DNA from: an uncultured Pelagibacteraceae bacterium
Lineage (GTDB): Bacteria > Pseudomonadota > Alphaproteobacteria > Pelagibacterales > AG-422-B15
Length of the DNA: 64,000 bases
Reading direction: 5' to 3'
Assembly: GCA_902517885.1 (NCBI GenBank)
Contig: CABYDZ010000003.1
Coordinates: forward strand, 1-64,000
Shown here: positions 45,739 through 62,929 of the stretch, in pieces
Position numbering within the stretch: position 1 is the stretch's first letter
How the letters are laid out: each line of letters starts with the position of its first letter
Notes under the pieces: model-generated
Seen by the model: the letters and a program-made list of their open reading frames with translations, nothing else
What the model was told of the DNA's origin: nothing
The model's database searches: none
Made by a program: the position numbers and the translations under genes

Positions 45739-46451
45739 TATTTAAATCTTATGTTTACTCTTCGGTTTCTTTTACCTTTATTTTCAATTTTTCCAATCTC
45801 TAATCCTTCAATCTCACCCGTTGATTTCACATGAGTGCCTCCACACGCCTGTATATCTAAAATTTTATCATCACCGATTTGAACAATTTGTACTTTGTTA
45901 TCAATTATGGGAGGGCTAACAGCAGCGCCTTTTGCTAAATGAGGGTTATCTCTAAATTCATCTCCAGAAATTTGTTTTGTGAATACAGGAAAATTATTTT
46001 TAATAATTTCATCAATCTGTTGATTCATTGCCTCTTTATCAAGCAAACTCGGGTCAACATCAAAATCAACTCTACTTTTTTGTGCTCCAACTGAGGCACC
46101 TGTAATTAAAGCATCAATCAAACTACACAGAATATGACATGACGTATGCATTCTCATATGACTTTGTCTCAATTCCCAATCAATTTTAATTTCACATTCT
46201 TTACCAACAATGCTCTGATCAATATCACCGTCGACTAAATGAATAATTTCATTTGGAGAATTACCTTTCTGGGTGTCAGTAACTTTATAAATTTGATCTC
46301 CTAGGATGATCTCTCCTTGATCACCCGGCTGTCCGCCTGACTCAGCGTAAAAAATTGTTCGATTTAATTGAATAGAGTTTTGATCGATGTTTGTAACAAC
46401 TGCTTCAGACTGAGTGAGGTAAGCGTCATTGTTAAAAAGTAATTCAGTCAT
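45738..46451 (-). CDS. Alanyl-tRNA editing protein AlaX
   Basis: Free-standing relative of the AlaRS editing domain that removes Ser or Gly from tRNA-Ala. The zinc-binding motifs are HMRMHTSCHILCSL (HxxxH) near residue 98 and ACGGTHVKSTGEIEGL (CxxxH) near 205. 237 residues, without the AlaRS catalytic or C-Ala parts. It is between the glutamine synthetase-like gene (2 bases) and the enoyl-CoA hydratase; the pairing with tRNA-Ala is coincidental. Well conserved motif set, so active editing is likely. Confidence 0.9.
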   Translation of the reverse strand: MTELLFNNDAYLTQSEAVVTNIDQNSIQLNRTIFYAESGGQPGDQGEIILGDQIYKVTDTQKGNSPNEIIHLVDGDIDQSIVGKECEIKIDWELRQSHMRMHTSCHILCSLIDALITGASVGAQKSRVDFDVDPSLLDKEAMNQQIDEIIKNNFPVFTKQISGDEFRDNPHLAKGAAVSPPIIDNKVQIVQIGDDKILDIQACGGTHVKSTGEIEGLEIGKIENKGKRNRRVNIRFK

Positions 46452-46453
46452 GA

Positions 46454-47824
46454 TTATAAATAGAGATCATATTCCTCTCGAGGAACAAAACTTGACTCGA
46501 CATGATCAATTTCACCTTGTTTTGCAGCAGTGTAAAGATCAAGATATTCTTGCCCAAGATATTTTTTTAATAGTTTGGAAGATTGGAAACGCGCTAACGC
46601 TTGGTCCATATTTTTTGGCATATCAATATCAGCTTCTTTATCCGCTCCTTCGTTATTATCAAAATCAACTTGGTTTGATGGGGTCAATTCATTAGTAAGG
46701 CCATTATGCAACCCTGCTAATAAGCATGCTAGGACTAGATAAGGATTAGCATCTGATGAAGCTACGCGATGTTCAATTCTTTTTGCGTCATCTGATCCAG
46801 CTGGTATTCTTAATGAAACATCTCTTCGATTCCAGGACCAACTTGTATTAACAGGAACGAAATTTCTTGTTTCTATTCTTCTGTAACCATTTCGATTTGG
46901 AATAAAGATTGGAAAACTATCATAAAACATTGATTGAAAACCAGCTATAGCACTTTTTAATTTTTTATTTCCGTAACGATTGGAAGTAGCAAATATATTT
47001 TTTTCATTTTCATCATAAACGGAGAGATGAAGATGCATTCCATTACCAGTTTGATCTAAAAAGGGTTTTGCCATAAATGTTGCTTCATAGCCATGTCGTT
47101 CACTTGTCTCTTTAATAATTCGTCTTAATAAAGCAGCATCATCTGCGGCTTTTAGAAGATCTCCTGTGTGCTTTAGATTAATTTCATACTGTCCCGCAGC
47201 AAATTCACTTGAGGCAGTAGTCGCTGGTATATTTTGCATTTCGCAATTCTTGTTAATATCATCAAATAACTTACCGAAGAGATCAAGGTCTGGTATGCCA
47301 TAAACATGTGTTTTATTAGCACCTTCAGCAGGTATTGGTTTTCCAGATTCATCCCTATTTTTGTCTAAAAGATAAAATTCTAATTCAAAAGCAACCACAG
47401 GCTTCAATCCGGTGTTCTTAAAATTCCTCTTAACTTTTTTTAGAATATTTCTGGGATCAACCTCAGATGGGTCTTGTATCACTCCCCAATTTTCTTGCTC
47501 TTTTCTCATTGTGATTAATACCTGTAAGAAGCGTTCATCCCACGGGACTGGCTTAATACTTCCTTTGACAGGAACCAGAACACCATCAGGATCACCATCT
47601 GTCCAACCTAGATTTAGGGTGTTTGTTACTCCTCCTAGAACATCAAGATAAAATGCGGAGAATGGGAGAAGAACGCCATCTGAAAAAATTTTATTTGCTT
47701 CAAGGACTGGGAAACGTTTTCCTCTTACATAACCACATAAATCTGTGAAGATTGCATCGACATATTGAATATTATTGTGCTGACTTAATACTTCATCAAA
47801 TTCAGCTTGTGTAGCAACTTCCAT
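46454..47824 (-). CDS. Glutamine synthetase-family ligase (gamma-glutamylpolyamine synthetase-like)
   Basis: ATP-dependent ligase of the GS superfamily, resembling PuuA, which joins glutamate to an amine. Motifs: VVAFELEFYLLD near residue 141 (metal-binding E-x-E), GMHLHLSVYDE near 263, and PNRNGYRRIETRNFVPV and NRRDVSLRIP in the C-terminal half. 456 residues. No adenylylation Tyr motif was seen. The surrounding genes (Rieske-less oxygenase, amidase, Pot-type transporter, amine oxidases) fit a gamma-glutamyl route for amine breakdown. It is not glnA. Confidence 0.85.
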   Translation of the reverse strand: MEVATQAEFDEVLSQHNNIQYVDAIFTDLCGYVRGKRFPVLEANKIFSDGVLLPFSAFYLDVLGGVTNTLNLGWTDGDPDGVLVPVKGSIKPVPWDERFLQVLITMRKEQENWGVIQDPSEVDPRNILKKVKRNFKNTGLKPVVAFELEFYLLDKNRDESGKPIPAEGANKTHVYGIPDLDLFGKLFDDINKNCEMQNIPATTASSEFAAGQYEINLKHTGDLLKAADDAALLRRIIKETSERHGYEATFMAKPFLDQTGNGMHLHLSVYDENEKNIFATSNRYGNKKLKSAIAGFQSMFYDSFPIFIPNRNGYRRIETRNFVPVNTSWSWNRRDVSLRIPAGSDDAKRIEHRVASSDANPYLVLACLLAGLHNGLTNELTPSNQVDFDNNEGADKEADIDMPKNMDQALARFQSSKLLKKYLGQEYLDLYTAAKQGEIDHVESSFVPREEYDLYL

Positions 47825-47838
47825 TTTATATCCCTGAC

Positions 47839-48933
47839 TTAAGTCAGTCCATTAACGTGATTTTGTAAATGACTTAGATAGAACTTTTGATATTGAACTA
47901 AGCTTGTCTCTAGTTCGCCATACTTTCCAGGCTGATAAGCTCGACTTTCAATACCCTTTTGATTCATTTCACACAATTGGGAGTCTTCTGTTGATGTTTG
48001 ATCCCAAAGAAAAATCATTTTATCAATGTCAACTTCAGCATCTTTGTGAGTAACCCAAAATTGAGTAACGATTGTTTTATTTTGACTAACAGGTGTAAAT
48101 AAAAAAAGAATTACAAATTCATTATTGGCAACAAAGCTATTGAATGGGCTAAAACCAATAGCCGTATAACCATGATCCGGTCCTATAGTTTTAAAGTCCC
48201 CCATTAGTGAAGAGCATGAATAGCTACCATCCATTGTCTCAGACATAATGCCTTCAGGTAAAGGAGTGCGCTCTGCAATTCTAAAATATTTATTAGTGTC
48301 TTCACTGTACTCACCGACAAACAAGCCTTTATTTTGACTTTCAAGTGTCCAATCTTTTATACGTTGATTAAATTCAGGAGACTCAATTCCTGAGCCAACG
48401 CCAGCTCCATAAGAATTACAATACGCCTCTCCATGAACACTTAAATAATCTTTGTGAGTAAACTCACCTCCCCAACAATGTGCACATTCTTTGAAGTTGT
48501 GAATGGTTGCAAGATGAGAAGCATTAAATATAAAGTCTTTTTGAAATGCAATCTTGCCGTCATTAAGGCCATGAATTTTAATATATGGTTCTAGTGGTTT
48601 TATGAATTCTTCAAATGAATATGGTACTTCAGAAAAGTTAACAAAGATTAAGCTTTCATAAACTTTTAAATGACATTTGAAATCAGCTACAGATGACGAG
48701 ATAATTAAATTATTATCTTTAGACTTTTTTATTTCAACAAACCCGCCATTAATTTGGTAAATGAATGTATTGTTTTCATTAAAATAAGATAGATGAGTAA
48801 GAAATACCCACTGTTTCTTGAAAACAGCCTCATAACTTAGATCAAACAATGCTTTGTTGGTAAAAAAAAGCTGATCCATTCCTGTATTAGGGTCTTGGTT
48901 TTGTATAATGTCTTTAATGTTTTGATCAATCAT
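47839..48933 (-). CDS. Rieske-type oxygenase alpha-subunit homologue lacking the Rieske cluster
   Basis: Aligns by eye with the full Rieske oxygenase at 55875-57113: QW at 41-42 matches QW39-40, and YESLIFVNFSE (92-102) matches YQGLIFINLSM, but about 50 residues in between are gone, exactly those that hold the CxH and CxxH iron-sulfur ligands. No Cys-x-His pair remains. Mononuclear iron ligands appear kept: His152 and His160 (NFKECAHCWGGEFTH) and Glu316/Asp317 (STED). 364 residues, open frame. Precedent: NdmC of the caffeine demethylase complex lacks a Rieske domain. Catalysis would need electrons from a partner; a non-enzymic role is also possible. Confidence 0.8.
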   Translation of the reverse strand: MIDQNIKDIIQNQDPNTGMDQLFFTNKALFDLSYEAVFKKQWVFLTHLSYFNENNTFIYQINGGFVEIKKSKDNNLIISSSVADFKCHLKVYESLIFVNFSEVPYSFEEFIKPLEPYIKIHGLNDGKIAFQKDFIFNASHLATIHNFKECAHCWGGEFTHKDYLSVHGEAYCNSYGAGVGSGIESPEFNQRIKDWTLESQNKGLFVGEYSEDTNKYFRIAERTPLPEGIMSETMDGSYSCSSLMGDFKTIGPDHGYTAIGFSPFNSFVANNEFVILFLFTPVSQNKTIVTQFWVTHKDAEVDIDKMIFLWDQTSTEDSQLCEMNQKGIESRAYQPGKYGELETSLVQYQKFYLSHLQNHVNGLT

Positions 48934-48985: not shown

Positions 48986-50482
48986 ATGAGTAGTTTAGAC
49001 CTCGATATTTGTTATTTATCAGCTTCTGAAGCACTAGAAAAATTTAAAAATAAATCTTTGTCTCCAGTTGAGCTATTAAATGAGACAATAAAAAGAATTG
49101 AAAATGTAAACCCAAAAATTAATGCTTTTAATTTTTTTCGCTTCGAAGAAGCATTGAAAGAAGCAAAAAAATCAGAATTAAAATATACAGAAGATAAATC
49201 TACTTTGCCTTTGGAAGGTTTGCCTTTAGCAATTAAAGATGAGGTTAATATAAAGGGACAACCTAATAAAAATGGAAGCTTAATCTATAAAGATGTAATA
49301 GCAGAAAAAACTGACGTAGATGTAGAGTCGCTTTTAAGCTCTGGTGCAATAATTCATGCACGCACAACTAACCCAGAGTTTTCACTGACATCATTCTGCC
49401 ATTCCAAAGTAAATGGCGTCACAAGAAATCCCTGGAACTTAGATATGACACCGGGAGGTTCAAGTGGGGGGAGTGCTGCCGCACTAGCGTCGGGTTGTGC
49501 ATCACTTGCTACTGGCAGTGATATAGGTGGATCAATTCGTATCCCTGCTGGAGCCTGCGGAGTCGTTGGTTACAAACCACCCTATGGAAGAAATCCAATG
49601 GGTTACCCTTTTAATCATGATCCGTATTGTGTTGTAGGTCCCCTTGCGAGAACTGTTAGTGATTGTGCTCTTATGCAAAATGTTATGAGTGGTCCAAATA
49701 AAAATGATATTGCTTCACTCAGACCTAAAAAAATTATTCCTAATAAGTTTGAGAGTATTAAGGACTGGAAAATTGCTTATTCACTTGATCTTGGATTTTT
49801 TGAAGTGGATGAAGAAGTTGAAAAAAATACATTGGAGGCTTTAAAAAAATTTGAGGCTCTTGGTGCAACAATTACAGAAGTAAAATTAAATTGGAATCGA
49901 GATGAAGTAAATTCAGTTTGCTTTAGTCATTACGCCAATTCATTTTATGGCCTCATTGCAAAATTTTCAAACGATGAAAAAAAACTATTAACTGATTATG
50001 CAAAAATGTTTGCTGAAGTCCCTGAACTACATTTAAAAGCGATACAGAATAATGAGAAGCACTATCACGATAAAATAGGGGCTTATGTTGGATATGATAC
50101 TATTGAAAGTGCAGAAATCACGGGCCGTATGTATTCAGAAATTGGGCCAATATTAGACAGTTATGACTTGTTTATATGTCCTACAAACTCTTTACCTTCA
50201 ATTAAAGCTGATATTGATATTGTTAATGAAAATCTCTTTATTAATAATAAAGAGCAGAAGTGTGCTGACTTTTCTTGGGTTATGTCACATCCATTTAATA
50301 TGTTGGGTAAATTACCGGTTCTATCTGTCCCCTCAGGATTGAGCTCTGACAACATTCCAACAGGAATCCAAATTATTGCTCGATCGTACTGTGATGAATT
50401 AGTGTTCCAAGGCGGGCATAACTACGAAATGTTAGATCCATGGCTAAATTCAAACAAAAATCGGCCTTTGATTCACCTTTAA
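48986..50482 (+). CDS. Amidase signature family enzyme
   Basis: Hydrolyses an amide bond with a Ser-cisSer-Lys triad. Lys is in PLAIKDEVNIKGQPN near residue 80; the Gly/Ser-rich core is TPGGSSGGSAAALASGCASLATGSDIGGSIRIPAGACG near residues 155-190 (second and nucleophilic Ser). 498 residues, no GatB/GatC neighbours, so not the tRNA amidotransferase subunit. Divergent from the Rieske-less gene and followed by the solute-binding protein gene. In context it might release ammonia or glutamate from an amide, for example from the GS-like ligase product; this is inference. Confidence 0.92.
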   Translation: MSSLDLDICYLSASEALEKFKNKSLSPVELLNETIKRIENVNPKINAFNFFRFEEALKEAKKSELKYTEDKSTLPLEGLPLAIKDEVNIKGQPNKNGSLIYKDVIAEKTDVDVESLLSSGAIIHARTTNPEFSLTSFCHSKVNGVTRNPWNLDMTPGGSSGGSAAALASGCASLATGSDIGGSIRIPAGACGVVGYKPPYGRNPMGYPFNHDPYCVVGPLARTVSDCALMQNVMSGPNKNDIASLRPKKIIPNKFESIKDWKIAYSLDLGFFEVDEEVEKNTLEALKKFEALGATITEVKLNWNRDEVNSVCFSHYANSFYGLIAKFSNDEKKLLTDYAKMFAEVPELHLKAIQNNEKHYHDKIGAYVGYDTIESAEITGRMYSEIGPILDSYDLFICPTNSLPSIKADIDIVNENLFINNKEQKCADFSWVMSHPFNMLGKLPVLSVPSGLSSDNIPTGIQIIARSYCDELVFQGGHNYEMLDPWLNSNKNRPLIHL

Positions 50483-50549: not shown

Positions 50550-51638
50550 ATGCCAAAATACAAAGAAATGAAAAATTCTTTTGTAAAAGCTCTGATTGTA
50601 TCGCTATCGTTCGTTTTTATTGCTGGCGTAGCGTCAACAACTAAAGCTTTTGCAGATGAGCCAGGATCCGTATTCCTGTGGGGAGGCTACGATGATGATG
50701 GTCTATTTGGAACATACGCTGAAGAGCATGGTTCCCCTGAATACTCAATATTTGGTGATGCTGAAGAAGGATTGCAAAAACTAAAAGCAGGCTTTGAAGT
50801 TGACTTAGCATGGCCATGTCAAGGTGAAATAAAAAGATGGGTAAGAGCAGGCGTATTAGAACCACTTGATCCATCAAGAATTGAAAACTGGAATGACATG
50901 TTCCCTGAAGTTAGAGACCTGCCAAGCGGCATGGTTGATGGCAAGCATTATTTTGCGCCAGTCGACTGGGGAGATACAACGTTGTTTTATATGGCAGACA
51001 GAATTGATTGGATGGATGCCTCTAATGAAAGCTTTGCTTTAATGGAAGACCCAAGAGTAAAAGGTAAAGTTGGTATTTTAGACTCTGCTGCAGACTCATT
51101 GTTTTTAATGATGCACCATCTTGGAATTGACATCAGAGAACAAGATCAATTGACAAAAGCTGCTATTGACCAAGGTATCGATAAGTTTCGTGAAATGAGA
51201 GATAATGGTCAAATTCGTGCATTCTTTGGAGATACATCTTCAATGATAGAAGCGCTAGGAAACGAGGAAATAGACGTAGCACTTGGATGGAACGAAATAG
51301 CATGGAGTGCAGGAGCAAAAATGATGCAGCCTGCTAATGGCACAATGACTTGGGCTTGTGGTCTTGCGATTGTTAAAGGTGCAGACCTTGATAAAGCATA
51401 CGCAATGATAAATGGTGCAACTAGTGCAGAAACATCTGCTTACTTATTAAGTGAGTGGGGTTATGGACACAGCAATAAAGCTGGCTTTAGCACACTTACA
51501 GCTGACGAATTGGCTGAGCGTGGTGTTGCATCAAACCCTATCGAACATTTAAATAATGGAATGTTCTCTGTGATGCCAACTGACGAAGTTACTGACTACA
51601 TGGAAGCTCAGTGGGCTGAAATGGTAGCTGGCGGTTAA
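50550..51638 (+). CDS. Extracellular solute-binding protein (spermidine/putrescine PotD-like)
   Basis: Periplasmic binding protein of an ABC importer. A signal peptide covers about residues 1-35 (ALIVSLSFVFIAGVASTTKAFA, cleavage after AFA). The body shows the PotD/PotF fold: VDLAWPCQGEIKRWVRAGVLEPLDPSRI, then YFAPVDWGDTTLFYM, and IDVALGWNEIAWSAG. 362 residues, no lipoprotein Cys. Codon use looks more GC-rich than neighbours, as if highly expressed, which is normal for binding proteins. Followed by a bidirectional terminator shared with the converging permease operon. Confidence 0.88.
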   Translation: MPKYKEMKNSFVKALIVSLSFVFIAGVASTTKAFADEPGSVFLWGGYDDDGLFGTYAEEHGSPEYSIFGDAEEGLQKLKAGFEVDLAWPCQGEIKRWVRAGVLEPLDPSRIENWNDMFPEVRDLPSGMVDGKHYFAPVDWGDTTLFYMADRIDWMDASNESFALMEDPRVKGKVGILDSAADSLFLMMHHLGIDIREQDQLTKAAIDQGIDKFREMRDNGQIRAFFGDTSSMIEALGNEEIDVALGWNEIAWSAGAKMMQPANGTMTWACGLAIVKGADLDKAYAMINGATSAETSAYLLSEWGYGHSNKAGFSTLTADELAERGVASNPIEHLNNGMFSVMPTDEVTDYMEAQWAEMVAGG

Positions 51639-51660: not shown

Positions 51661-51698
51661 AAAATAGCCTGTTCTCTCTTGAGGACAGGCTATTTTTT
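51661..51698. terminator. Bidirectional rho-independent terminator
   Basis: Left arm 51661-51676 and right arm 51681-51696 form a 16-pair stem (one G-U) with loop TCTT, followed by T's on the plus strand (51693-51698) and TTTT on the minus strand. It sits between the converging binding protein gene and the ATPase gene. The last codons and stop of the ATPase gene (TAG at 51690-51692) lie inside the stem. Confidence 0.9.
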
Positions 51699-52772
51699 AT
51701 TGAGTAAGGAAATATCGTTTAAATTTATGCTGATAAAGCATTTACCATCTTGAAAAGACTGATTATCAAAATATTGTGATGATACGGTTATAATTTTTTC
51801 TATTTCTTTAGTTTCTACGTAAAATTTTGTCATTTCACCTAGATATGATGTTTGCTTGATTTTACCTTCTAAGCAAATATCCCAGTCTGATTTTTCTTTG
51901 TCAATCATCATTGTCTCTGGACGAACACTGCAAATAACATCTGAGGCATTTTCATTTATATTGAGATTATTTTTTATTTTAAATGAACCAAGATCTTCAA
52001 TGTTAACATTAATATATTCTCCGTCTTTAGACTCCGTCTTAGCTTTTAAAAAATTAGTTTCGCCAATAAAGTCACTAACAAATATATTTTGAGGATTTTT
52101 ATATAATTCGTTTGGAGACGACATCTGCTGAATTTTACCTTCACTCATCACCGCAACTCGATCTGACATACTAATAGCCTCTTGCTGGTCGTGCGTAACA
52201 AATACAAAAGTTATTCCAATCTCTTTTTGAAGAGTTCTTAGTTCGAGTTGCATTTCGTCACGTAACTTTTTATCTAGTGCCCCAAGTGGCTCATCCAGTA
52301 ATAATACTTTGGGTTGTCTTACTAAAGCCCTTGCTAATGCCACTCTTTGTCTTTGACCTCCTGATAGTTGGCTGCTATAGCGTTCCTCATAACCTTCTAA
52401 TTTTACCAACGACAAAACATCCTTAACTCTTTTGATAATTTCATCATTTGTTAAGCCAAGTTTTCTCAAGCCAAACTGAACATTTTTTTCAACATTGATA
52501 TGAGGAAAAATTGCATAATTCTGAAAAACCATATTTGTCGGTCTTTTGTCAGGAGGTAATGCAGTAATATCACTGCCATCAAGTAATAGATTACCACTAG
52601 TTGGATACTCAAAGCCGGCTAATAATCTTAATAATGTTGTTTTGCCGCAACCTGAAGGACCTAGAAGAGAGAAAAACTCTCCCTCTTTAATTTGAAAAGA
52701 GACATCATCTACCGCTTTTACATTTCCAAAATGCTTAGAAATTCCATTTATTTGTATGAAAGAATCATTCAT
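51690..52772 (-). CDS. ABC transporter ATP-binding protein (PotA-like)
   Basis: Powers the Pot-type importer. Walker A GPSGCGKTTLLRL near residue 40, signature LSGGQRQRVALARALV near 137, Walker B VLLLDEPLGALD and switch His in FVTHDQQEA. A C-terminal regulatory TOBE-like part (from about residue 245) begins QNIFVSDFIGETNFLKAK. 360 residues. ATG overlaps the next permease gene by eight bases, so ATPase and both permeases are one operon. Confidence 0.93.
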   Translation of the reverse strand: MNDSFIQINGISKHFGNVKAVDDVSFQIKEGEFFSLLGPSGCGKTTLLRLLAGFEYPTSGNLLLDGSDITALPPDKRPTNMVFQNYAIFPHINVEKNVQFGLRKLGLTNDEIIKRVKDVLSLVKLEGYEERYSSQLSGGQRQRVALARALVRQPKVLLLDEPLGALDKKLRDEMQLELRTLQKEIGITFVFVTHDQQEAISMSDRVAVMSEGKIQQMSSPNELYKNPQNIFVSDFIGETNFLKAKTESKDGEYINVNIEDLGSFKIKNNLNINENASDVICSVRPETMMIDKEKSDWDICLEGKIKQTSYLGEMTKFYVETKEIEKIITVSSQYFDNQSFQDGKCFISINLNDISLLNKK

Positions 52773-53580
52773 GTATTTTTATTCCAAATTCAGCTTTCTC
52801 TTTTCCTTGACCAAGGTTTCGCAACCAGAATGCTAACAAAACTATAAAAGTAGTAAACACAATTATAACTGCTCCTAAAGCCAATACATGAGGCAGTTTC
52901 TGAATAAATCTCATTTGAGCCCACATATACATAGGCAATGTTGCATCGCTTCCAGTTAAGAAGAATGCCAGAACAAATTCATCAAATGAAATTATAAAAC
53001 TCAATAAAAGTGAAGCTATTATGCCTGGTAGATATAATGGAAGAGATACTCTGTAAAATGTCCCCCAGGCGTTTTCCCCAAGGTCTCTTGATGCTTCCTC
53101 TAGTGAGAAATCAAAACCTTCTATGCGAGCAATTAAAATAAGCATTGCAAATGGAGTGCAAAAAAGAATATGTCCTAAAGTTACCGGTACAAGTCCTAAT
53201 TTAAAACCAAGACTTAACCAAATAACAAGTATTGCAACTGCTAAAATAATTTCAGGGATTAAAAAAGGAATCATAATAGCCCCATAAGAAATATTTTGCC
53301 CTCTGAATTTATATCGTGCGAATGCTTTGGCTGCAAAAAGAGCAATTGTTGTGCTGACGACACTTGCAACTACACCTACTTTGATACTAGCCCAAAGAGC
53401 TTTATGTAAATTTGTTTTGGCCCACATTTCTTCATAATGCTCTGTTGTAAATCCTGAGAGTGGAAATGACATATAATTTGCGTCATTAAAACTAAATATT
53501 GGCAAGAATAAAACAGGTATATATAAAAATGCAAAATACAGTAATGTGTAGATTAACAGTGTATTGTTTTTTTGTTCCAC
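52765..53580 (-). CDS. ABC transporter permease (PotC-like)
   Basis: Inner-membrane permease with six hydrophobic helices. EAA loop for ATPase contact: EEASRDLGENAWGTFYRVSLPLYLPGIIASLLL near residues 160-190. A first helix is at residues 7-30. 271 residues. Immediately follows the PotB-like gene (stop and start abut at 53580-53581), together forming the channel for the PotD-like binding protein on the other side of the terminator. Confidence 0.9.
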   Translation of the reverse strand: MEQKNNTLLIYTLLYFAFLYIPVLFLPIFSFNDANYMSFPLSGFTTEHYEEMWAKTNLHKALWASIKVGVVASVVSTTIALFAAKAFARYKFRGQNISYGAIMIPFLIPEIILAVAILVIWLSLGFKLGLVPVTLGHILFCTPFAMLILIARIEGFDFSLEEASRDLGENAWGTFYRVSLPLYLPGIIASLLLSFIISFDEFVLAFFLTGSDATLPMYMWAQMRFIQKLPHVLALGAVIIVFTTFIVLLAFWLRNLGQGKEKAEFGIKIHE

Positions 53581-54465
53581 TTATGAAATCCTTTGAGTAA
53601 GTTTTTTTGTTGTATATGAAACAATCATTGTCACTATTGCTACAGTAATAAGCATAATGGTTGCAGAGGCGGCCCCAAGGGGAAGATTGTTTACTTTTCC
53701 AAAATATGCTTGGATCATGTTTGATAGCATTCTTCCATCAGTTCCCCCAAGCAAAGCAGGGGTAACATAATCCCCAACAGTTGGAATAAAGATAATTAGT
53801 ATGGCGCCAATTATTCCAGGAAGAGATAATGGAAGTGTAATTTTCCAAAAAGTTTCTAATCTTGACAGCCCTAGATCTCTAGCGGCCTCAATTAAAGAAA
53901 AGTCTATTTTATCCAATGATACATACAAAGGTAGTAAAGCGAATGCTGCCCATGCATGGGTAAGCGTTATGATAACTGCGGTCTCAGAATACATTAGAAA
54001 AGTGAGAGGTTCGCTAAGCAGTCCTGCATTAATTAGAGAAGAATTAATAACTCCCTTTGTTCCAAGTATAATTTTCCAAGAAAAAACCCTTAAAAGATAG
54101 GATGTCCAGAAAGGTAAAGTCAGTAAAACAAGCCATAACATTTTATTTTTCTTTACATAAAAAGCTATGTAATAACAGACAGGATAAGCAGTAAGAAGAG
54201 TTACGAAAGTTACAATAAACGAAATCTTCACTGATTTTATAAGTAAAGAGACAAGCAAGTTCTTTTGAAAAAAGTCAATATACCTTTGAACAGTGAAAGA
54301 GTAGTCAATTTCAGTAAAGCTAACTTGAGTGAAAAAGCTAAAGCTCAACATTAGCCCCAAGGGTATTAGCATTGCTAGAGTAACTAGGATCAATGCAGGA
54401 GAAAGAAGTGAATAAGCTTTTGCGGGATCACTCCTCGCATAAAATGACTTCCAGACTTGTAACAT
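53581..54465 (-). CDS. ABC transporter permease (PotB-like)
   Basis: Second permease of the importer. The EAA loop is EAARDLGLSRLETFWKITLPLSLPGIIGAIL near residues 195-225, and six to seven helices are visible. 294 residues. First gene of the minus-strand permease-ATPase operon; 36 bases separate its start from the end of the FAD oxidase gene, so it may also be read through from there. Confidence 0.9.
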   Translation of the reverse strand: MLQVWKSFYARSDPAKAYSLLSPALILVTLAMLIPLGLMLSFSFFTQVSFTEIDYSFTVQRYIDFFQKNLLVSLLIKSVKISFIVTFVTLLTAYPVCYYIAFYVKKNKMLWLVLLTLPFWTSYLLRVFSWKIILGTKGVINSSLINAGLLSEPLTFLMYSETAVIITLTHAWAAFALLPLYVSLDKIDFSLIEAARDLGLSRLETFWKITLPLSLPGIIGAILIIFIPTVGDYVTPALLGGTDGRMLSNMIQAYFGKVNNLPLGAASATIMLITVAIVTMIVSYTTKKLTQRIS

Positions 54466-54501: not shown

Positions 54502-55857
54502 TTATATTTCTTTTTTACTTTTATCTGTAAAATTTGAATACCATAGATATAGTCTTAAATACCATAATCTTAAAAACCCTAGTGGTATTTTTGGAGAGAG
54601 CCCTTGATAGACTTTTGAAATATTAGTTTCTCCACTATTGGATTCATAGATCATCTCAGCCAACTTCTTTCCACAATAAACTGTAGTATTGTTTCCATTG
54701 GCTTGATAGCCGTATGAAAAAAGTACTGACTTATCATCGTCCAAAGCACCAAATGCTGGAACAAAATCTCTAGTCATAACAACAGTACCTCTCCAGTAGT
54801 GATCAATATCTATATTGTTCCAATTAGGAAAAACACCCCTAAATTTTTGAGTCATAAATTCTCTCATTTTTAGTGCACTTGCATCATCACCGTAAGTATC
54901 ACCTCTTGTACCAAACAACATTCTGTTAGAAGGCATCCTTCTATAATAATATAAAATTTCTCTAGAATTACATATTGGATTTAAGGTTTTGTAGTTTTGT
55001 AACTTAAATTCATCATCACTCATTTCTCTAGTAACAATAATGTTTGATAGGACTGGCATCATTCGATTAGCAAAACTTGGATGAAGTGACTCATCCGTAT
55101 AACCGTTAGTGGCCACAACAACTTTATTTGCAGTAATTGATCCACCATCTGTTATTAGCTTATGTGATCCATTTCTCTCCCATTTTTTCACCCTTGAAAA
55201 ACTATGTAATTTTGCACCTGCATCGACAGTTGCTGATGCAAAGCCTCGCATAAACGCCATAGGATTCATTGCAAAGCCAGCTTCTGTAAAAACTGCACCA
55301 AATTGTTCTGTTGATTGATGTCCAACTTCATCAAATTCTTCTTTGGGAATCCATTTAGTATTAATACCAAAATACTCTTTCAGTTCATTTCCCCATTCTT
55401 TTAATTCTTCGCTGCTTCCTGGATGGTGGGCTACATCAAGGTTGCCATCCCCTACTTTTTCACATTCAATATTATTTTCTGATATGATTGACGCTAGAAG
55501 ATCAACTCCTTCTATTTGAGATGAGAAAAATTTCTTTGTTTCTTCCATGCCAAATTTTTTTATTAATTGAGTCGTAGATAACTTTGTTGCCGGTAAACAA
55601 CAAAAACCAGCATTCCTCGCACTGCTTGCAAAACCATAATGCCCAGCTTCTAAAACTCTTACATCTCCACCATAATTTTTAGCAATATGGTAAGCTGTGC
55701 TTATACCTGTAAAGCCACCTCCAATGACGCATACATCGCATGATTGATCTCCAACTAATTTTGGATATTTGTTTTGATCAATACTGCTGACATCTTCCCA
55801 ATAGCTTTCTACAGGTTTATTAACATCGTAAATATCCTTGTTGTATAACTGCTTCAT
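54502..55857 (-). CDS. FAD-dependent oxidoreductase, DAO family (PuuB-like)
   Basis: Amine or amino acid oxidase/dehydrogenase of the glycine oxidase fold. Rossmann motif CVIGGGFTGISTAYHIAKNYG near residues 42-62; a second landmark FASSARNAGFCC near 75; C-terminal WRGTVVMTRDFVPAFGALDD and FSYGYQANGNNTTVYCGKKL. 451 residues. PuuB oxidises gamma-glutamylputrescine in E. coli; the GS-like ligase nearby makes a similar role thinkable, but sarcosine or other amine oxidases have the same fold. 17 bases downstream of the Rieske oxygenase. Confidence 0.85.
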   Translation of the reverse strand: MKQLYNKDIYDVNKPVESYWEDVSSIDQNKYPKLVGDQSCDVCVIGGGFTGISTAYHIAKNYGGDVRVLEAGHYGFASSARNAGFCCLPATKLSTTQLIKKFGMEETKKFFSSQIEGVDLLASIISENNIECEKVGDGNLDVAHHPGSSEELKEWGNELKEYFGINTKWIPKEEFDEVGHQSTEQFGAVFTEAGFAMNPMAFMRGFASATVDAGAKLHSFSRVKKWERNGSHKLITDGGSITANKVVVATNGYTDESLHPSFANRMMPVLSNIIVTREMSDDEFKLQNYKTLNPICNSREILYYYRRMPSNRMLFGTRGDTYGDDASALKMREFMTQKFRGVFPNWNNIDIDHYWRGTVVMTRDFVPAFGALDDDKSVLFSYGYQANGNNTTVYCGKKLAEMIYESNSGETNISKVYQGLSPKIPLGFLRLWYLRLYLWYSNFTDKSKKEI

Positions 55858-55874: not shown

Positions 55875-57113
55875 TCATGGTAGTCGCATGTTGGTAAAAT
55901 ACCAATCATAAAAGTATGTGACGGCTGACTCATTCTGAGACAGAACCCCCGGACTAAATGAGTGAGACAGCAAGCCATTTTGATTATTTTCAATTATGGT
56001 TGTGTCATGCGCCGTTGTTACATCCCAAATATGAGTAAGATTTTCTTCATTAAAATCTTTATCTTTCTCAGCTTCTTCATTAACTAACCAAATCAATTCA
56101 ACTTCTGATTGCAAAATTGATAATGGTTTAAATATAAACATTACTCCAAAATCATTTGTAAAATAACAACAGCTAAAAGGATTAAAACTTACTTGGGATA
56201 AACCCCCATCAAATTCCTGAAACTTACCCATTAACTTTGATGCTGGCTTACCATCTTTAGTTTGTGATAAATTTCCATTTCCAATGGGTGTACGATCTAC
56301 ATATCGATTTAATCCCTTGCTCAAGCCTTCTTTAGTCTCTAAATATGTTTTTGAGGGAATTCCTTTTGTTTTGCACTCGTCAATCCACGGCTGGATCTTT
56401 TTTAAGTATTCTTGTGTTTCTTTTTCTGGGGCAGTGCCAAGACCAGCACCCATTGTAAAAACCCAGTCTTTTTCATGCACTGAACAAAACTCTGGATGCG
56501 CTGGACCACAATGATAGCATTCTTGAAAATTTTCTAGGACTAGTTTGAAATTAGCTTTAGTTGGATATTTTTTTCTAGCTGCAATTTTTGCCTTTTCAGG
56601 ATTATGGAAATTTACAAGTTCAGTTAATGGAGCAATAAACTCTTTAAAATCCATTGGCTTCTCCATTGAGAGATTTATGAATATCAAGCCTTGATAAATA
56701 TTCATATGACAAGGCTTCAGTCCCCAATCTTCCATTTTAAAATCGTCAGGCATATAACGTGCTGACTTTAACTCACCTTCTGCGGAGAAACTCCAAGCAT
56801 GGTATGGACAAACCAACAGTTTTTTTGTTCCTTCTTCTTCCAAGCAAATTCTTGAACCACGATGAGAACATACGTTATAAAAAGCTCTAATTTGATTGTC
56901 CCTTCCACGTATTAGGATTATTGACTCTTTTTCTGCGTTAAATAAAAAATAATCTCCAGGATTTGGAATACGGCTAACATGATCAACCATCAGCCACTGC
57001 TTGAAATAAATTTTTTTCATTTCATCAGAAAATATTTCTTCGTCAGTATAAAACTCTTGCGGAAGAGTCTTTCCTTCTTCATATCTTTCTTTTAGTTGAT
57101 TAAAAAGGGTCAT
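55875..57113 (-). CDS. Rieske non-heme iron oxygenase, alpha subunit
   Basis: Aromatic-ring-hydroxylating type or N-demethylating oxygenase. Rieske ligands Cys82 and His84 (CSHRGSRIC) with Cys102 and His105 (VCPYHAWSF). Mononuclear iron ligands His201 and His206 (ENFQECYHCGPAHPEF), and an Asp in the AHDTTIIENNQNG region near the C terminus. 412 residues. ECYHC with two His four or five residues apart resembles betaine and carnitine-type enzymes. No reductase gene lies in the window. It abuts the aminotransferase (shared A). Confidence 0.93.
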   Translation of the reverse strand: MTLFNQLKERYEEGKTLPQEFYTDEEIFSDEMKKIYFKQWLMVDHVSRIPNPGDYFLFNAEKESIILIRGRDNQIRAFYNVCSHRGSRICLEEEGTKKLLVCPYHAWSFSAEGELKSARYMPDDFKMEDWGLKPCHMNIYQGLIFINLSMEKPMDFKEFIAPLTELVNFHNPEKAKIAARKKYPTKANFKLVLENFQECYHCGPAHPEFCSVHEKDWVFTMGAGLGTAPEKETQEYLKKIQPWIDECKTKGIPSKTYLETKEGLSKGLNRYVDRTPIGNGNLSQTKDGKPASKLMGKFQEFDGGLSQVSFNPFSCCYFTNDFGVMFIFKPLSILQSEVELIWLVNEEAEKDKDFNEENLTHIWDVTTAHDTTIIENNQNGLLSHSFSPGVLSQNESAVTYFYDWYFTNMRLP

Positions 57114-58516
57114 TAATTTGAAGTTGCTGACCAGAGACCTTCTTTTTTGATATCGTCAGTTGCTAATTCTATACCTTTACGCAAAATAGAAACAAGGTCG
57201 TCAATTTGTTCTTTGGTAATAATCAGTGAAGGCGACATGACGCATGTACTAAATAATGGTCGTACGATTAAACCTAACTGCTGGCAATGCTCATTAATCC
57301 TAGAACCAATCTCGTAAGATAAATTCAGTGGATCTTTTTTATCCTTATTACCCACACATTCTACTGCAGCCATAAGACCTTCACCTCTAACTTCACCAAC
57401 AATTGGTAAATCAGTGAGCTCTCTCAATTTTGCTTGAAAATAAGGGCCAACATCTTTTACGTGATCAAGTAAGTTAGTTTTTTCAATGTAGTCTAGAGTT
57501 GCAGTTGCGGCGGCCATGCTAACAGGATGCCCTGAGTCTGTGAAACCGTTTGAAAAAATTACTTTCTCTTTATTATCTAATTTGGACATCAATCGCTCTG
57601 ATATAACAACAGCTCCACAAGGCACATATCCAGATGTGATCCCCTTAGCGAGAAGTATAATATCCGGTGTGAAATCAAAATAATTTTCTGAAGCAAAAAT
57701 GTGGCCAAGTCTTCCAAAACCAGTAACGATTTCGTCTGAAATGTACAATACATCATGTCTCTTACAAATTTCGTGTGTCTTCTTATGATAACCTTTTGGT
57801 GGGACAATCACACCACCTGAAGCTAAAATAGGCTCGGCTATAAAAGCAGCAACCTTGTCAGCACCAATTTCAATTATTTTGTTTTCTAATTCTTGAACCT
57901 TTAGATCACAGAATTCTTCGTCAGTAAGATCATCAGGTTTACGAAAAGGATTAGGAGATGAAATATGATGAACAATATTACTTGCGAAATCAAAATTATT
58001 TTTATCTCTTTCCTTGCCTGAACAAGAAGCTCCTAAAAATGTACTGCCATGATAAGCATCGTTTCTTGATATAATTTGTTTTTTTTCTTTTCGGCCAAGA
58101 ATATTATTATAGAACATTACAAATCGTAATGCTGAGTCCACAGCAGACGATCCACCAGAAGTAAAAAAAATTCTTTTTAAATCACCAGGTGCGTATTGAA
58201 CAAGTCTTGATGCATAATTGTGAGCTATTTCTGTTGATTCAGTAAACGGACTTGCGTAAGGCATTTTAGTAATTTGATTGTAAACTGCATCCGCAATTTC
58301 TTTAACACCATGACCAACATTGACATTCCACATGCCTCCAGGTCCATCAATTAGTTTTTTTCCTGTTTTGTCATAAAGGTAAATTCCCTCAGACTTATCA
58401 ATAAATGTCCGATCATCTTCACCTCTGTATTCTAAGTACTGCCATGGATGAAGAATTCGATCATCTAGGGTATTCTTTAAATCTTTTATAAGAGGTTGGG
58501 ATGTGGATTTAGGCAT
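57113..58516 (-). CDS. Class III pyridoxal-phosphate aminotransferase
   Basis: Moves an amino group, often from an omega-amine or diamine, to 2-oxoglutarate or pyruvate. PLP-binding Lys lies in LLAKGITSGYVPCGA near residue 280, acidic partner in YISDEIVTGFGRLGH near 250, and FFTSGGSSAVDSALR near 115 binds the phosphate. 467 residues. It heads a minus-strand unit with its own promoter; a TetR-type palindrome overlaps that promoter. Overlaps the Rieske oxygenase start by one base. Substrate may be an aminated product of the amine pathway. Confidence 0.93.
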   Translation of the reverse strand: MPKSTSQPLIKDLKNTLDDRILHPWQYLEYRGEDDRTFIDKSEGIYLYDKTGKKLIDGPGGMWNVNVGHGVKEIADAVYNQITKMPYASPFTESTEIAHNYASRLVQYAPGDLKRIFFTSGGSSAVDSALRFVMFYNNILGRKEKKQIISRNDAYHGSTFLGASCSGKERDKNNFDFASNIVHHISSPNPFRKPDDLTDEEFCDLKVQELENKIIEIGADKVAAFIAEPILASGGVIVPPKGYHKKTHEICKRHDVLYISDEIVTGFGRLGHIFASENYFDFTPDIILLAKGITSGYVPCGAVVISERLMSKLDNKEKVIFSNGFTDSGHPVSMAAATATLDYIEKTNLLDHVKDVGPYFQAKLRELTDLPIVGEVRGEGLMAAVECVGNKDKKDPLNLSYEIGSRINEHCQQLGLIVRPLFSTCVMSPSLIITKEQIDDLVSILRKGIELATDDIKKEGLWSATSN

Positions 58517-58521
58517 GAATC

Positions 58522-58550
58522 ATTATAGCTTAAATTGAACAGCTGTTCAA
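58522..58550 (-). promoter_or_regulatory. Promoter of the aminotransferase-Rieske-oxidase operon
   Basis: On the minus strand TTGAAC (58545-58550), 17-base spacer, perfect TATAAT (58522-58527), then five bases and the ATG (58516). The start of transcription would fall at or next to the start codon, so a leaderless message is likely. A palindromic operator overlies the -35 box. Confidence 0.7.
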
Positions 58551-58551
58551 T
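58534..58551. promoter_or_regulatory. TetR-type operator candidate, site B
   Basis: Perfect 18-base palindrome ATTGAACAG-CTGTTCAAT, that is ATTGAA-N6-TTCAAT. It overlaps the -35 box and spacer of the aminotransferase promoter. The same outer half-sites with the same spacing recur beside the TetR gene at 62965. A third ATTGAA half-site occurs at 58553-58558. Confidence 0.65.
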
Positions 58552-58583
58552 AATTGAATTACTATATAATCCTTATTTTTTGG

Positions 58584-59783
58584 CTATTCATATAGATCTG
58601 CAGGAACTTTATTTCTTCTTTCAGGGTTAAAAAATTGCCTTTTCACTACCTTGCATCTTGCCCATATCTTACGGTACTCAAGTTCTTCAGGGTGATAAAT
58701 TTCTGCAAATATATTTTCTTTTATTTTTATTCCGTAAGGTCTCTTGAGTGAAGCCAGTGCAATATTTTTTTTCATAATAGGAGACCATAGAGCTGCAGTT
58801 ACAATGCCAATGTCTTCTTTTTTGCTATTATAGATCACAGAACCATGCGCTGGCTTATCTCCATCTATATCCAGGCCAACTAAGCATCTCTCAGTAGTGC
58901 TTTCTTCTTTTTCTTTTTTAAGAGCTTTCTTCCCAACGAAATATGAGTTTTTGTTTAAGTGTACAAGCCATCCCATTCCAATTTCATAAGGTGATCTCAT
59001 TCTGGTTGGTCTCAATGAATCTTCTGCAGCCATAAAGTCTGTATTGGTTTGAATAAACCCAGCTTCAATTCTTGTCATTTCGAGAGCATGCATTCCAAAA
59101 GGTCTCAATTTTAATTCCTTGCCAGCAATTTCAATATTGTCCCATGTAGCTTCTGCGTTTTTTGGATCAGTCCACAATTCGTAACCCAAGTCACCAGTGA
59201 ATCCTGTCCGTGAAATTAAAATATCAAAGCCATCAATTTTATATTCTCTCATTTCAAAAGGTTTTAATTTTTCAAGATCCTCTGCCCCAAATTTTTTTAA
59301 AGTTGAGCACGATGTTGGACCTTGAATTGCTAGTGCTGCAATAGTGTCTGTTACATCGCTTATTGAAACATCAAAGCCATAAGCTGAGTCGTTAAGCCAG
59401 TTATATATTTTAACAGCACAGCAAAGCATAAATTTTGTTGAGGAAAATTTAAAAATAGTACCATCGTCAATCACTTTTCCATCTTCATTGCACCAGATGA
59501 TGTAAGCTACTGTATTGTCCTTCATTTCTGATAAGTCTCGGGTAACTAAGTAATCAACAAATCTATGCGCATGATCACCCGTAATTTCATATTTGCCCAT
59601 AGGGGTAAGATCCATAACTGATGTACCATTTCTTGCTGCTGTATATTCTAGCTCGGTTGTTGAATATTCAGTGGGTACAGTGTAGCCATTCCAATTATAA
59701 TATTTGTTAGTTCGAGAAGCCATACTGGTTTTGGAATGAAAAGGTGTCTTCTTTAAGGCTGAATATCTAAGATCTTGTGTCAT
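58584..59783 (-). CDS. Aminomethyltransferase GcvT-family protein
   Basis: Tetrahydrofolate-dependent demethylase or aminomethyltransferase fold. Landmarks are TARNGTSVMDLTPMGKYEITGDHAHRFVD near residues 48-76, AALAIQGPTSCSTLKKFG near 148, ISRTGFTGDLGYELWTDP near 190, and GMHALEMTRIEAGFI near 235. 399 residues. The other glycine cleavage genes are not beside it, so it is more likely a free-standing demethylase for a methylated amine, like DmdA or related proteins. It is downstream of the two PYROXD2-like genes on the same strand. Confidence 0.88.
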   Translation of the reverse strand: MTQDLRYSALKKTPFHSKTSMASRTNKYYNWNGYTVPTEYSTTELEYTAARNGTSVMDLTPMGKYEITGDHAHRFVDYLVTRDLSEMKDNTVAYIIWCNEDGKVIDDGTIFKFSSTKFMLCCAVKIYNWLNDSAYGFDVSISDVTDTIAALAIQGPTSCSTLKKFGAEDLEKLKPFEMREYKIDGFDILISRTGFTGDLGYELWTDPKNAEATWDNIEIAGKELKLRPFGMHALEMTRIEAGFIQTNTDFMAAEDSLRPTRMRSPYEIGMGWLVHLNKNSYFVGKKALKKEKEESTTERCLVGLDIDGDKPAHGSVIYNSKKEDIGIVTAALWSPIMKKNIALASLKRPYGIKIKENIFAEIYHPEELEYRKIWARCKVVKRQFFNPERRNKVPADLYE

Positions 59784-61301
59784 TTAAAAATCGTCCAAAA
59801 CTGCTTTAGCTGCATTTTTGCCTGAAATACCAGTTAAGCCACCACCCGGATGTGTTCCTGCGCCACACATAAAAAGACCATCCAAATGCGTTTTATACTG
59901 TGAGGCTCCTGGAATTGGGCGCATCATAAAAAGCTGATCAATTTGGATCTCGCCGTGATGCCAGTGTCCACCTGATACATTATATTCTAATTCAATATCG
60001 TCAGGGGTTATTAATTTCTTATGCTCGATGCATTCATTAATATTGGGAGCATATTTACTAATGATTTTGATTATAGATTCAATATAATTTTCTTTTACAT
60101 TTTCCCACCCTTGATCAGTTTTGTATGGTGCATATTGAACTTGAATGTCTAATTTTGGATTTTGATCAGAGTCTTTCTTCACACAAATTTCAAGTGTTGG
60201 CTCTAGTGAAAGCTTGTCAAACTTACTAGGGTTAAATGTTTCTTCAATGTAATCAATAGATGGCGCAACAACCATTCTGCTATCAAGATCAATATCATCA
60301 CAATTGTTAAAACTAGGTAACTTGTTTAAATCTAAAATAAGTTTAGCAACTCGTCCTTTGGAACGATGATGCTTAATTTTCCTTTTTACGTCAGTATCAA
60401 GGTTTTGAGAGCCAAGTAATGAAAAGTATGTTGAACGTGGATCTACATTAGAAATAATTTTCTTAGCATAAACCTTTTCACCATTAATTAGTTCAACGCC
60501 TACAGCACAGTCATCTTCAACAATACAATTTTTAACAGACGCTGAGGTCTTTATTTCTACATTATTGCTTTTACATTTTTCAATTAGATGTTTAGTGAAT
60601 TGATCGTTGCCTCCCTCTATCTGAAATATGCCACCAAATAATGAATTATTGTGGATAGCCATTCTATATAATAAGTTTATGAGAGAGCCTGGTGAACGTG
60701 GGCCTAAATTTGACCCTATGACTGAGTCATGTGCAATCAACCCTTGAAGTAATGTATTTTCAAAATTATCTTCGAGTTCATCAGCTATATTTAGACCAAT
60801 CATCCTGGCAAACTCATTGAAATTTTTCTTTCCTAGTAGCCTAACATTTAATCCAAGCTTGAAGAGCTTAAAATAGTCAGAAAAGCTGTTGTTCATAATA
60901 CGTGGAGGTGATGCCATCATGAAAGAGCCCAGAGTTTTTGAGAATTTTGACATTTTCTCATGAAAATCGTTAAAACGGTCAGCATCTTGCGAAGAAAATG
61001 TTGAGATAGATTTATGGTCAATGTGTTGATTGCCAACTAGTCGGATGTGCTGCCCAGTTTCAGATAAAGCGATTGTAGTCTTTGGCAAATAATTTACTTG
61101 CATACCTCCTAACGAACTTGAAACAGTTGTTGTTACTGGAGGAACATAGTTTGTGATTTCATTGTTGACCATACCACCACACTCTTTTCGTGCTTCACAA
61201 ATTAGTACTCTTTTATTTTTTCTAGCAAGGATATTTGCGCATACCAATCCATTATGACCTCCACCGATTATGATGGCATCAAAATTCGAATTGTCAGACA
61301 T
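59784..61301 (-). CDS. FAD-dependent oxidoreductase, phytoene-desaturase/PYROXD2-like (copy 2)
   Basis: Probable FAD dehydrogenase or oxidase of the amine oxidase/phytoene desaturase fold. Dinucleotide motif AIIIGGGHNGLVCANILARKN near residues 10-30 and the C-terminal GLFMCGAGTHPGGGLTGISGKNAA near 475-500. 505 residues. Related in order of motifs to the following gene copy (QIDQLFMMRPIPGASQY and TMDQLMFNRPVPGYAQY), so the pair seems to be an old tandem duplication. Its start is one base off the upstream stop (61301). Confidence 0.88.
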   Translation of the reverse strand: MSDNSNFDAIIIGGGHNGLVCANILARKNKRVLICEARKECGGMVNNEITNYVPPVTTTVSSSLGGMQVNYLPKTTIALSETGQHIRLVGNQHIDHKSISTFSSQDADRFNDFHEKMSKFSKTLGSFMMASPPRIMNNSFSDYFKLFKLGLNVRLLGKKNFNEFARMIGLNIADELEDNFENTLLQGLIAHDSVIGSNLGPRSPGSLINLLYRMAIHNNSLFGGIFQIEGGNDQFTKHLIEKCKSNNVEIKTSASVKNCIVEDDCAVGVELINGEKVYAKKIISNVDPRSTYFSLLGSQNLDTDVKRKIKHHRSKGRVAKLILDLNKLPSFNNCDDIDLDSRMVVAPSIDYIEETFNPSKFDKLSLEPTLEICVKKDSDQNPKLDIQVQYAPYKTDQGWENVKENYIESIIKIISKYAPNINECIEHKKLITPDDIELEYNVSGGHWHHGEIQIDQLFMMRPIPGASQYKTHLDGLFMCGAGTHPGGGLTGISGKNAAKAVLDDF

Positions 61302-62929
61302 TAATAATAATTTCCTTTTTGTGGAACGTTCATGTCTAGTAGAACTTCACGAGCAGCGTTAGCTCCTGGGGCACCCATTACACCTCCGCCTGGATGTGTT
61401 GAAGAACTGCATATATACATATTTTTTAATGGAGTCCGATACTGTGCATATCCTGGGACCGGCCTATTGAACATTAATTGGTCCATGGTCAACTCTCCTT
61501 GAAAAATATTACCCTCTGTCAGACCAACCTCGTTTTCCAATTCTAGTGGTGTACGAACCTCATAATGATTAATTAAGTCTTTAAAGTTAGGTGAAAACTC
61601 TGAAATACAATCAACAATATGTCTTCCAAACTCTTGCTTTCTCTCTTCATTCCATCCGCCATTTGCGAGGTTGAATGGTACATACTGAATAAATACAGAC
61701 ATATAATGCTTACCAGGCTCAGCCATTGTCGGATCACTTTTGGATGGAATACACATGTCTACATATGGATTTCGTGACCATTCTCCCCTTTTCCAATCGT
61801 CATAAGCGCCTTCCATCTCTTCAATTGTTTCTGTGAAGTGCATGTCTCCACCACCCCCTGGATCGCCTTCAGGTATGCATGGAAAATCTGGTAATGCATC
61901 TAATGCAATATTTAATTTACCAGATGACCCCCTTATCTTGAAATTTTTCACGCTTCTCACAAAATCATCAGGAAGATCCTTCTCCTCAGTAATCTTTAGA
62001 AATGTTCGTTTGACATCAAGATTGGATACAATTTTCTTTGCGTAATATTCATCACCATTTTGTGTTGCGACCCCAATTGCTTTTCCATTTTTTGTAATAA
62101 CGTTAGTTACTTCGCTGCTAGGCTTTACTTCACCACCATGGTCTTTTAAACAACCCATCATTGCTTGAGTAATAGATCCCATGCCACCTCTTGCATAGCC
62201 CCATGAGCCAACTGATCCATCAACTTCACCCATATAATGGTGCAGCAACACATAAGCTGATCCTGGCGAACATGGACCCAAAGCTGTGCCTATGATTGCA
62301 CTGCCAGCAAGATGGGCTTTAGTTATTTCACTTTCAAAATATTCCTCTAAGTAATCTCTAATACTCATCGTATAGAAACGAATAGTGTCATAAATCTCTT
62401 TTTCTCCAAGACCATCTAGTTCATCTTTTGCAGCAAAATGTTTCGCAAACTCGAGGGCACCAAATAAATCTTTTGGTTTAAATGATGTTAAGTCAGGCGG
62501 TGTCATTTTTAGTAGAGGCTTAATAATTTTACATTGTCTAAGAACGTCTCGGCTGTATCTTTCATATGCTTCTGCGTCTTTATGAGAATGACGCCTAATA
62601 GAATTTATAGTCATGTCATGATCATGGTAATGAGTGTAATAATCTCCATTTTTCATCATCGTGGCACTGCCTTCGTATGGGATAATTTGTAGCCCATACT
62701 TATAAAGCTCTAAGTCCCGCATGATCTCTGGCCTTAATAAACTGCATACATAAGAACAATTTGAATATTTCCATCCTGGGTAAAGCTCTCGACTTACTGC
62801 TGCGCCGCCAATCCAATCATTTTTTTCTAGGACAACGACATCTAATCCTGCTTTAGCCATATAACTAGCTGCAGTAAGCCCGTTATGGCCCGCTCCAACA
62901 ACAATTACATCATGAGTATTTTTTGGCAT
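61301..62929 (-). CDS. FAD-dependent oxidoreductase, phytoene-desaturase/PYROXD2-like (copy 1)
   Basis: First gene of the divergent operon. Dinucleotide motif VIVVGAGHNGLTAASYMAKAGLDVVVLEK near residues 8-36; end MYICSSSTHPGGGVMGAPGANAAREVL. The 542-residue protein has extra segments relative to the paralogue. Function unknown in the family (PYROXD2 in mitochondria is uncharacterised); in this operon it may dehydrogenate a carbon-nitrogen bond. An operator candidate lies 35-55 bases upstream. Confidence 0.88.
   Translation of the reverse strand: MPKNTHDVIVVGAGHNGLTAASYMAKAGLDVVVLEKNDWIGGAAVSRELYPGWKYSNCSYVCSLLRPEIMRDLELYKYGLQIIPYEGSATMMKNGDYYTHYHDHDMTINSIRRHSHKDAEAYERYSRDVLRQCKIIKPLLKMTPPDLTSFKPKDLFGALEFAKHFAAKDELDGLGEKEIYDTIRFYTMSIRDYLEEYFESEITKAHLAGSAIIGTALGPCSPGSAYVLLHHYMGEVDGSVGSWGYARGGMGSITQAMMGCLKDHGGEVKPSSEVTNVITKNGKAIGVATQNGDEYYAKKIVSNLDVKRTFLKITEEKDLPDDFVRSVKNFKIRGSSGKLNIALDALPDFPCIPEGDPGGGGDMHFTETIEEMEGAYDDWKRGEWSRNPYVDMCIPSKSDPTMAEPGKHYMSVFIQYVPFNLANGGWNEERKQEFGRHIVDCISEFSPNFKDLINHYEVRTPLELENEVGLTEGNIFQGELTMDQLMFNRPVPGYAQYRTPLKNMYICSSSTHPGGGVMGAPGANAAREVLLDMNVPQKGNYY

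Follow-up and report, generated by a model that had tools for sequence, protein, structure and literature searches.

A conserved Rieske-less oxygenase alpha-subunit paralogue and its complete sister in one gene island of a SAR11 family

Two relatives of the Rieske oxygenase alpha subunit are encoded 7 kb apart in the window, i.e., the whole stretch of 64,000 nucleotides that was analyzed. One is a complete protein (FL), while the other is a Rieske-less paralogue (RL). The order of the genes is aminotransferase, FL, DAO oxidoreductase, PotB, PotC, PotA, binding protein, amidase, RL, glutamine-synthetase-like (GS-like), in some loci AlaX, and enoyl-CoA hydratase (Table 1). Order and linkage were judged wherever a contig reached far enough. 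RL and the GS-like gene are neighbors in all loci where they are visible, and they form a putative transcription unit that does not include FL. This pair is kept even in the G007 locus, which is without the amidase and AlaX. The AlaX-like alanyl-tRNA editing protein (45738-46451 in the window) belongs to the same apparent operon as RL and is missing in L043, L045, and L073.

Table 1. Genes and sequence features of the island (window positions).
Feature	Position	Strand	Family or remark
RL, Rieske-less oxygenase alpha-subunit paralogue, 364 aa	47839..48933	-	PF00848 only; closest PDB 3n0q, 4qup, 3vca
RL residues 71-87, junction of missing cluster segment, SKDNNLIISSSVADFKC	48673..48723	-	breakpoints ambiguous by several residues
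RL residues 149-160, ECAHCWGGEFTH: bridging Glu149 (CntA E205), His152, 3-residue insertion, His160	48454..48489	-	
RL Asp317, candidate third iron ligand (CntA D323)	47983..47985	-	
FL, complete Rieske oxygenase alpha subunit, 412 aa, sister paralogue, candidate electron donor	55875..57113	-	PF00355 + PF00848
FL residues 82-105, CSH...CPYH cluster-ligand segment, missing in RL	56799..56870	-	
FL residues 198-206, ECYHCGPAH, canonical bridging Glu and two iron histidines	56496..56522	-	
Glutamine-synthetase-like (PuuA/GlnA-type), 14 bp downstream of RL, invariant neighbor	46454..47824	-	PF00120
Amidase, divergent from RL	48986..50482	+	PF01425
Polyamine-type periplasmic binding protein (PotF-like)	50550..51638	+	
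PotA-, PotC-, PotB-like ABC transporter genes	51690..54465	-	PotA by family; PotB, PotC from position and sequence only
DAO-family FAD oxidoreductase (AmaA / PuuB-like)	54502..55857	-	
Class III aminotransferase, GcvT-like THF-binding protein, two CrtI/CrtO-like FAD oxidoreductases	57113..62929	-	

The reading frame of RL fills exactly the interval 47839-48933, starts with ATG and contains no internal stop. In the Pfam search its sole match was Ring_hydroxyl_A (PF00848; E 2.5e-12, above the cut-off), and the Rieske domain PF00355 was not found. The PDB entries closest to RL by sequence are also the closest by fold: the predicted structure (mean pLDDT 73) matches 3n0q, 4qup, and 3vca with Z about 28 over 308-316 aligned residues at an rmsd of about 3 A, and the carnitine oxygenase CntA (6Y8J, 6ZGP) with Z about 22. 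FL matches the Stc2/3N0Q family with E 2e-72. Both proteins have their nearest relatives among quaternary-ammonium oxygenases of the stachydrine demethylase / 3N0Q / GbcA type, and both score below the curated cut-off of the equivalog NF058607 for the glycine betaine monooxygenase GbcA (670 bits; RL 138.5, FL 299.3). RL is a Stc2/GbcA-type Rieske oxygenase alpha subunit by descent but, with no Rieske domain, not a complete member of the Rieske oxygenase family.

The ligands of the [2Fe-2S] cluster in FL are C82, H84, C102, and H105. In the alignment all four columns are gaps in each of the 40 RL orthologues, and they are filled in all 32 full-length proteins. RL is a net 48 residues shorter than FL, the QW and LIF-x-N blocks that flank the gap are retained, and in the predicted structure the strands are kept on either side of the junction. 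The earlier note, made from the sequence of the window alone, had described an alpha-subunit relative without its Rieske cluster that lacks about 50 residues between kept flanks, and both statements hold. The alignment of the most divergent orthologue (the G007 copy) suggests that the bulk of the loss was a single block of roughly 40 residues round both cluster loops, accompanied by a smaller gap.

The RL orthologues and their FL sisters belong to one family of the Pelagibacterales (SAR11). Matches were present in 47 of its 53 genomes, with RL in 43 of them (three cut by contig ends) and FL alone in four. The 40 distinct full-length RL orthologues, all from this family, share 39-100% identity. 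In the maximum-likelihood tree RL forms a single clade (99/94) that is sister to the FL proteins of the family (96/87), with outside relatives beyond. The simplest reading of this topology is one duplication followed by one loss of the cluster in the ancestry of the family. The branch at the base of the RL clade is long (1.11 changes per site), which fits a changed role. Pairwise dN/dS, calculated without the distant G007 copy, is about 0.05-0.16 for RL genes and 0.03-0.10 for FL genes; these values are rough because many pairs come close to saturation at synonymous sites. RL is ancient and kept under strong purifying selection. The possibility raised before, that this copy is a lone product of decay, does not stand, since the loss is ancestral and single, is shared by 40 of 40 orthologues, and is accompanied by a linked FL wherever the contig allows. 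No Rieske-less relative was found outside the family in 385 genomes of the class and 398 of the phylum, in each of which up to five candidates were scored, so that oxygenase-rich genomes were covered in part; the viral contigs searched contained no relatives either. In the literature search AG-422-B15 was named in no paper found. Among the outside proteins in the tree, the complete alphaproteobacterial oxygenase of G948 (L104 / L116) branches closest to the two SAR11 clades, the joint group being supported with 100/99.

Regarding the iron site, all 40 RL orthologues carry Phe147, Glu149, Cys150, His152, Cys153, His160, and Asp317 without exception, and these residues match FL. Invariant columns number 98 of 364 within the RL clade and 52 of 364 across the RL and FL clades. 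H152, H160, and D317 align with H201, H206, and D370 of FL. The earlier observation that both histidines and an acidic residue seem kept calls for a correction, however, since it had missed an insertion of three residues that pushes the two histidines apart in 39 of the 40 copies (ECAHCWGGEFTH vs. ECYHCGPAH in FL). In these copies the loop reads HCWGGEF[T/S]H, Glu157 occupies the position that the second histidine would have at normal spacing, and W154, E157, and F158 are conserved in 39 of 39. This insertion makes the coordination of iron in RL uncertain, and the His/His/Asp set is best regarded as candidate ligands. The canonical HCGPAH is present in one RL orthologue only, the most divergent G007 copy (L073:8486-9565), which has the same cluster loss; this suggests that the catalytic domain is intact at least there. 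AlphaFold models built with 34 rows gave pLDDT below 50 at residues 149-168 of RL, and the FL control was equally poor over its own loop (198-208), so the low confidence in RL is uninformative about the insertion. Glu149, conserved in 40 of 40 RL proteins, is equivalent to E205 of CntA, which serves inter-subunit electron transfer and of which every mutant tested was inactive (PMC7948474). Group V (quaternary-ammonium) Rieske oxygenases carry either an aromatic Y/F203 (clade Va) or Asn (clade Vb) in CntA numbering (PMC7948474). Phe147, at CntA position 203, matches the aromatic residue of clade Va and is present in all 40 RL and all 32 FL proteins.

The co-occurrence of the two genes was also considered. 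RL was seen without a visible FL in G002, G003, G013, G015, G018, G028, G030, and G031, where the contig is short or breaks off close to RL, and on no long contig was RL seen without FL. Conversely, FL occurs without a visible RL in G001, G025, G051, and G052, which are drafts 54-92% complete. In G052 (61% complete) FL lies in a different downstream context and RL was not found, hence FL may be able to do without RL. The polyamine-type transporter, the GS-like enzyme, the DAO oxidase, the aminotransferase, and the GcvT-like protein together suggest that the island serves to break down an N-methylated or cationic amine. A possible link to a homarine operon was followed as well and gave no direct match. 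Gamma-glutamylation is a possible step, by analogy with the aniline and 1-naphthylamine dioxygenases (AtdA, NpaA), in which a GS-like gamma-glutamylating enzyme, an amidotransferase-like enzyme and a Rieske oxygenase are clustered (PMC11335346). However, those systems pair a large with a small oxygenase subunit and have a reductase of their own, and their oxygenase class and amidase family differ from those of the island. The island is unstudied and apparently serves this SAR11 family in the use of nitrogen-rich dissolved organic matter. The CrtI/CrtO-like genes lie side by side at 59784-62929, and the best NCBIfam match of the pair is the beta-carotene ketolase CrtO, far below the cut-off.

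Concerning electron supply, PF00175 (NAD_binding_1) had no match in the genome of the window (85% complete) or in nine near-complete relatives, i.e., no GbcB/CntB-type reductase was found. These members of the SAR11 family have at least two Rieske oxygenases, yet no detectable reductase of the PF00175 type. In eleven near-complete relatives the number of Rieske proteins per genome is between two and four, FL among them. The second oxygenase in these relatives is a frame of 387 aa (380 aa in the genome of the window) outside the island, and the unlinked oxygenase of the window's genome is distant in the tree. A small Rieske protein of 169-183 aa in the near-complete relatives is likened to PetA by size only, and G007 has one further complete oxygenase of 394 aa. 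A Rieske-fused (NdmD-like) reductase, a stand-alone Rieske ferredoxin and an extra small Rieske protein were each looked for in the 11 near-complete genomes, and none was found. FL is the sole island-linked source of a Rieske cluster. In two relatives (L119:1426-3250, L121:1480-3251) no more than about 1.2 kb separates a gene for an adrenodoxin-type ferredoxin from the beginning of a flavoprotein reductase, and such a ferredoxin could plausibly supply electrons to the oxygenases in general. The start of the L119/L121 flavoprotein resembles ferredoxin reductase of the thioredoxin-reductase type. In G551 and G505, which are other Alphaproteobacteria with full-length relatives, a gene of 362-370 aa adjoins the oxygenase and is taken for its reductase by position and size only.

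Rieske oxygenases are thought to rely on the cluster of one subunit for the supply of electrons to the iron of its neighbor. With a conserved subunit that lacks exactly the cluster and keeps the bridge residue, this inter-subunit rule would become testable in a natural system. RL probably works only on electrons borrowed from FL, or else in a new, non-classical way. Our preferred reading, to which we would give somewhat less than an even chance, is that RL is catalytic and Rieske-dependent, is assembled with FL and is fed through Glu149. RL would join FL either in a ring of mixed alpha/alpha-prime composition or by docking onto it, and electrons would pass from the Rieske cluster of FL via Glu149 to the iron of RL, as they do between identical subunits in CntA. 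The second active site provided by RL might handle a different substrate of the same island, possibly a gamma-glutamylated, N-methylated or cationic one. The ultimate donor would probably be a general ferredoxin with a flavin ferredoxin reductase, given that no reductase of the GbcB/CntB type was found. The full division of labor, in which FL contributes cluster and iron and RL an altered iron site powered solely through the bridge from FL, is put forward more tentatively still.

A hetero-oligomer with FL had already been proposed in the earlier note, and it is favored by the invariant Glu149 and by the near-complete genomes, which showed no other dedicated Rieske donor. We know of no need for a bridging glutamate in a subunit that is not fed by the cluster of a neighbor. 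On the other hand, the insertion in 39 of the 40 copies may alter or abolish canonical iron binding, the nearest operon partner of RL is putatively the GS-like gene rather than FL, and FL was seen without RL in the four incomplete drafts. Moreover, if RL takes a place in a head-to-tail trimer, the subunit after it has no donor, and this cost needs explanation. The proposal is supported in part: the catalytic fold, the bridge residue and the single Rieske source in the island are observed, and we infer the assembly, the electron transfer and the substrate. If it is true, electron relay and catalysis would have parted in evolution by a route other than that of NdmC/NdmD, the second one known, and an ocean SAR11 lineage would have dissected the electron transfer between subunits genetically, by natural means.

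Among known systems, RL resembles Stc2 (3VCA, 4QUP), 3N0Q, and GbcA (NF058607) in the architecture of the catalytic domain, the E-C-x-H-C signature and the candidate Asp ligand; Stc2 and GbcA, however, have their own Rieske cluster, and two residues ahead of the bridging glutamate they carry Asn where RL has Phe147 (PMC7948474). In the latter respect RL is closer to CntA, with which it shares the bridging glutamate and an aromatic residue (Y/F203) two positions before it. CntA forms a homotrimer in which every subunit is complete and which is served by the reductase CntB (PMC7948474), whereas a CntB-type reductase was not found in the family genomes checked. Two different alpha subunits in one assembly are known from NdmA/NdmB, an alpha3-alpha-prime3 hetero-hexamer (PMC12445004), but there both carry clusters and RL has none. 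Among the papers returned by our literature searches, NdmC of the caffeine N7-demethylase NdmCDE was the only Rieske-less oxygenase subunit. It receives electrons from the Rieske center of another protein, namely the Rieske domain fused to the reductase NdmD, with the GST-like NdmE as scaffold (PMC4408171, PMC10380055). NdmC had been cited before as a precedent, and as a functional analogue it serves well: RL is likened to it by function and description, not by sequence, in having no cluster. The likeness ends at the donor, since NdmC is fed by NdmD, nothing NdmD-like was found, and the candidate donor of RL is its complete sister FL. Of the genes in the island that family searches could identify, none encodes an NdmE-like GST. 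As neither NdmD nor NdmE was found, RL is not classed with the NdmCDE systems, although its mode of action may be similar. Under the mixed-oligomer model the novelty relative to NdmC would be a similar way of working with a different donor.

The main rival of the preferred model, which we consider unlikely yet worth serious attention, is that RL is a pseudo-oxygenase that binds substrate or stabilizes or regulates FL or the GS-like enzyme, its conserved residues being structural or metal-binding without O2 chemistry. The absence of a cluster in RL, the altered loop of 39 of the 40 copies, the long base branch and the invariant adjacency to the GS-like gene across a 14-bp gap would all agree with this. 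It accounts poorly, however, for the invariance of every ligand candidate and of the bridging glutamate, and for the canonical HCGPAH that the G007 copy retains despite the same cluster loss.

Improbable in our judgment is an NdmC-like homotrimer of RL without FL, in which the vacated cluster site is taken by the adrenodoxin-type ferredoxin or by the Rieske domain of an unlinked oxygenase. Such external supply of a Rieske domain has its precedent in NdmC (PMC4408171, PMC10380055), and a general ferredoxin does occur in the relatives. Nevertheless, the 11 near-complete genomes lack a Rieske-fused reductase or an unexplained stand-alone Rieske ferredoxin, and the unlinked oxygenases lie outside the island, that of the window's genome being also distant in the tree. 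We see a similarly slim chance that RL has been repurposed as an enzyme of mononuclear iron or another metal that needs no Rieske donor, has its site at His152, Glu157 or His160, and Asp317, and acts on the product of the GS-like enzyme. The conservation of the insertion itself (W154, E157, F158) would fit, as would the invariant GS-like neighbor and the known company of GS-like enzyme, Rieske oxygenase and amidotransferase in the aniline/naphthylamine systems (PMC11335346), but the bridging glutamate is invariant and has no obvious role outside Rieske electron transfer, and the canonical site persists in G007. Finally, a missing domain alone could resemble decay, but a degenerate gene or assembly artefact has practically no chance and was ruled out by 40 distinct intact sequences from separate single-cell and metagenome assemblies, the low dN/dS and the conserved synteny.

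The FL proteins vary among themselves as well. In FL copies such as L057:1554-2792 the ligand loop reads HCPTAH, HCSNAH or HCGPAH, and in the SVH motif that follows it His is replaced by Gln in 17 of the 32 copies. This variation may reflect differences in substrate.
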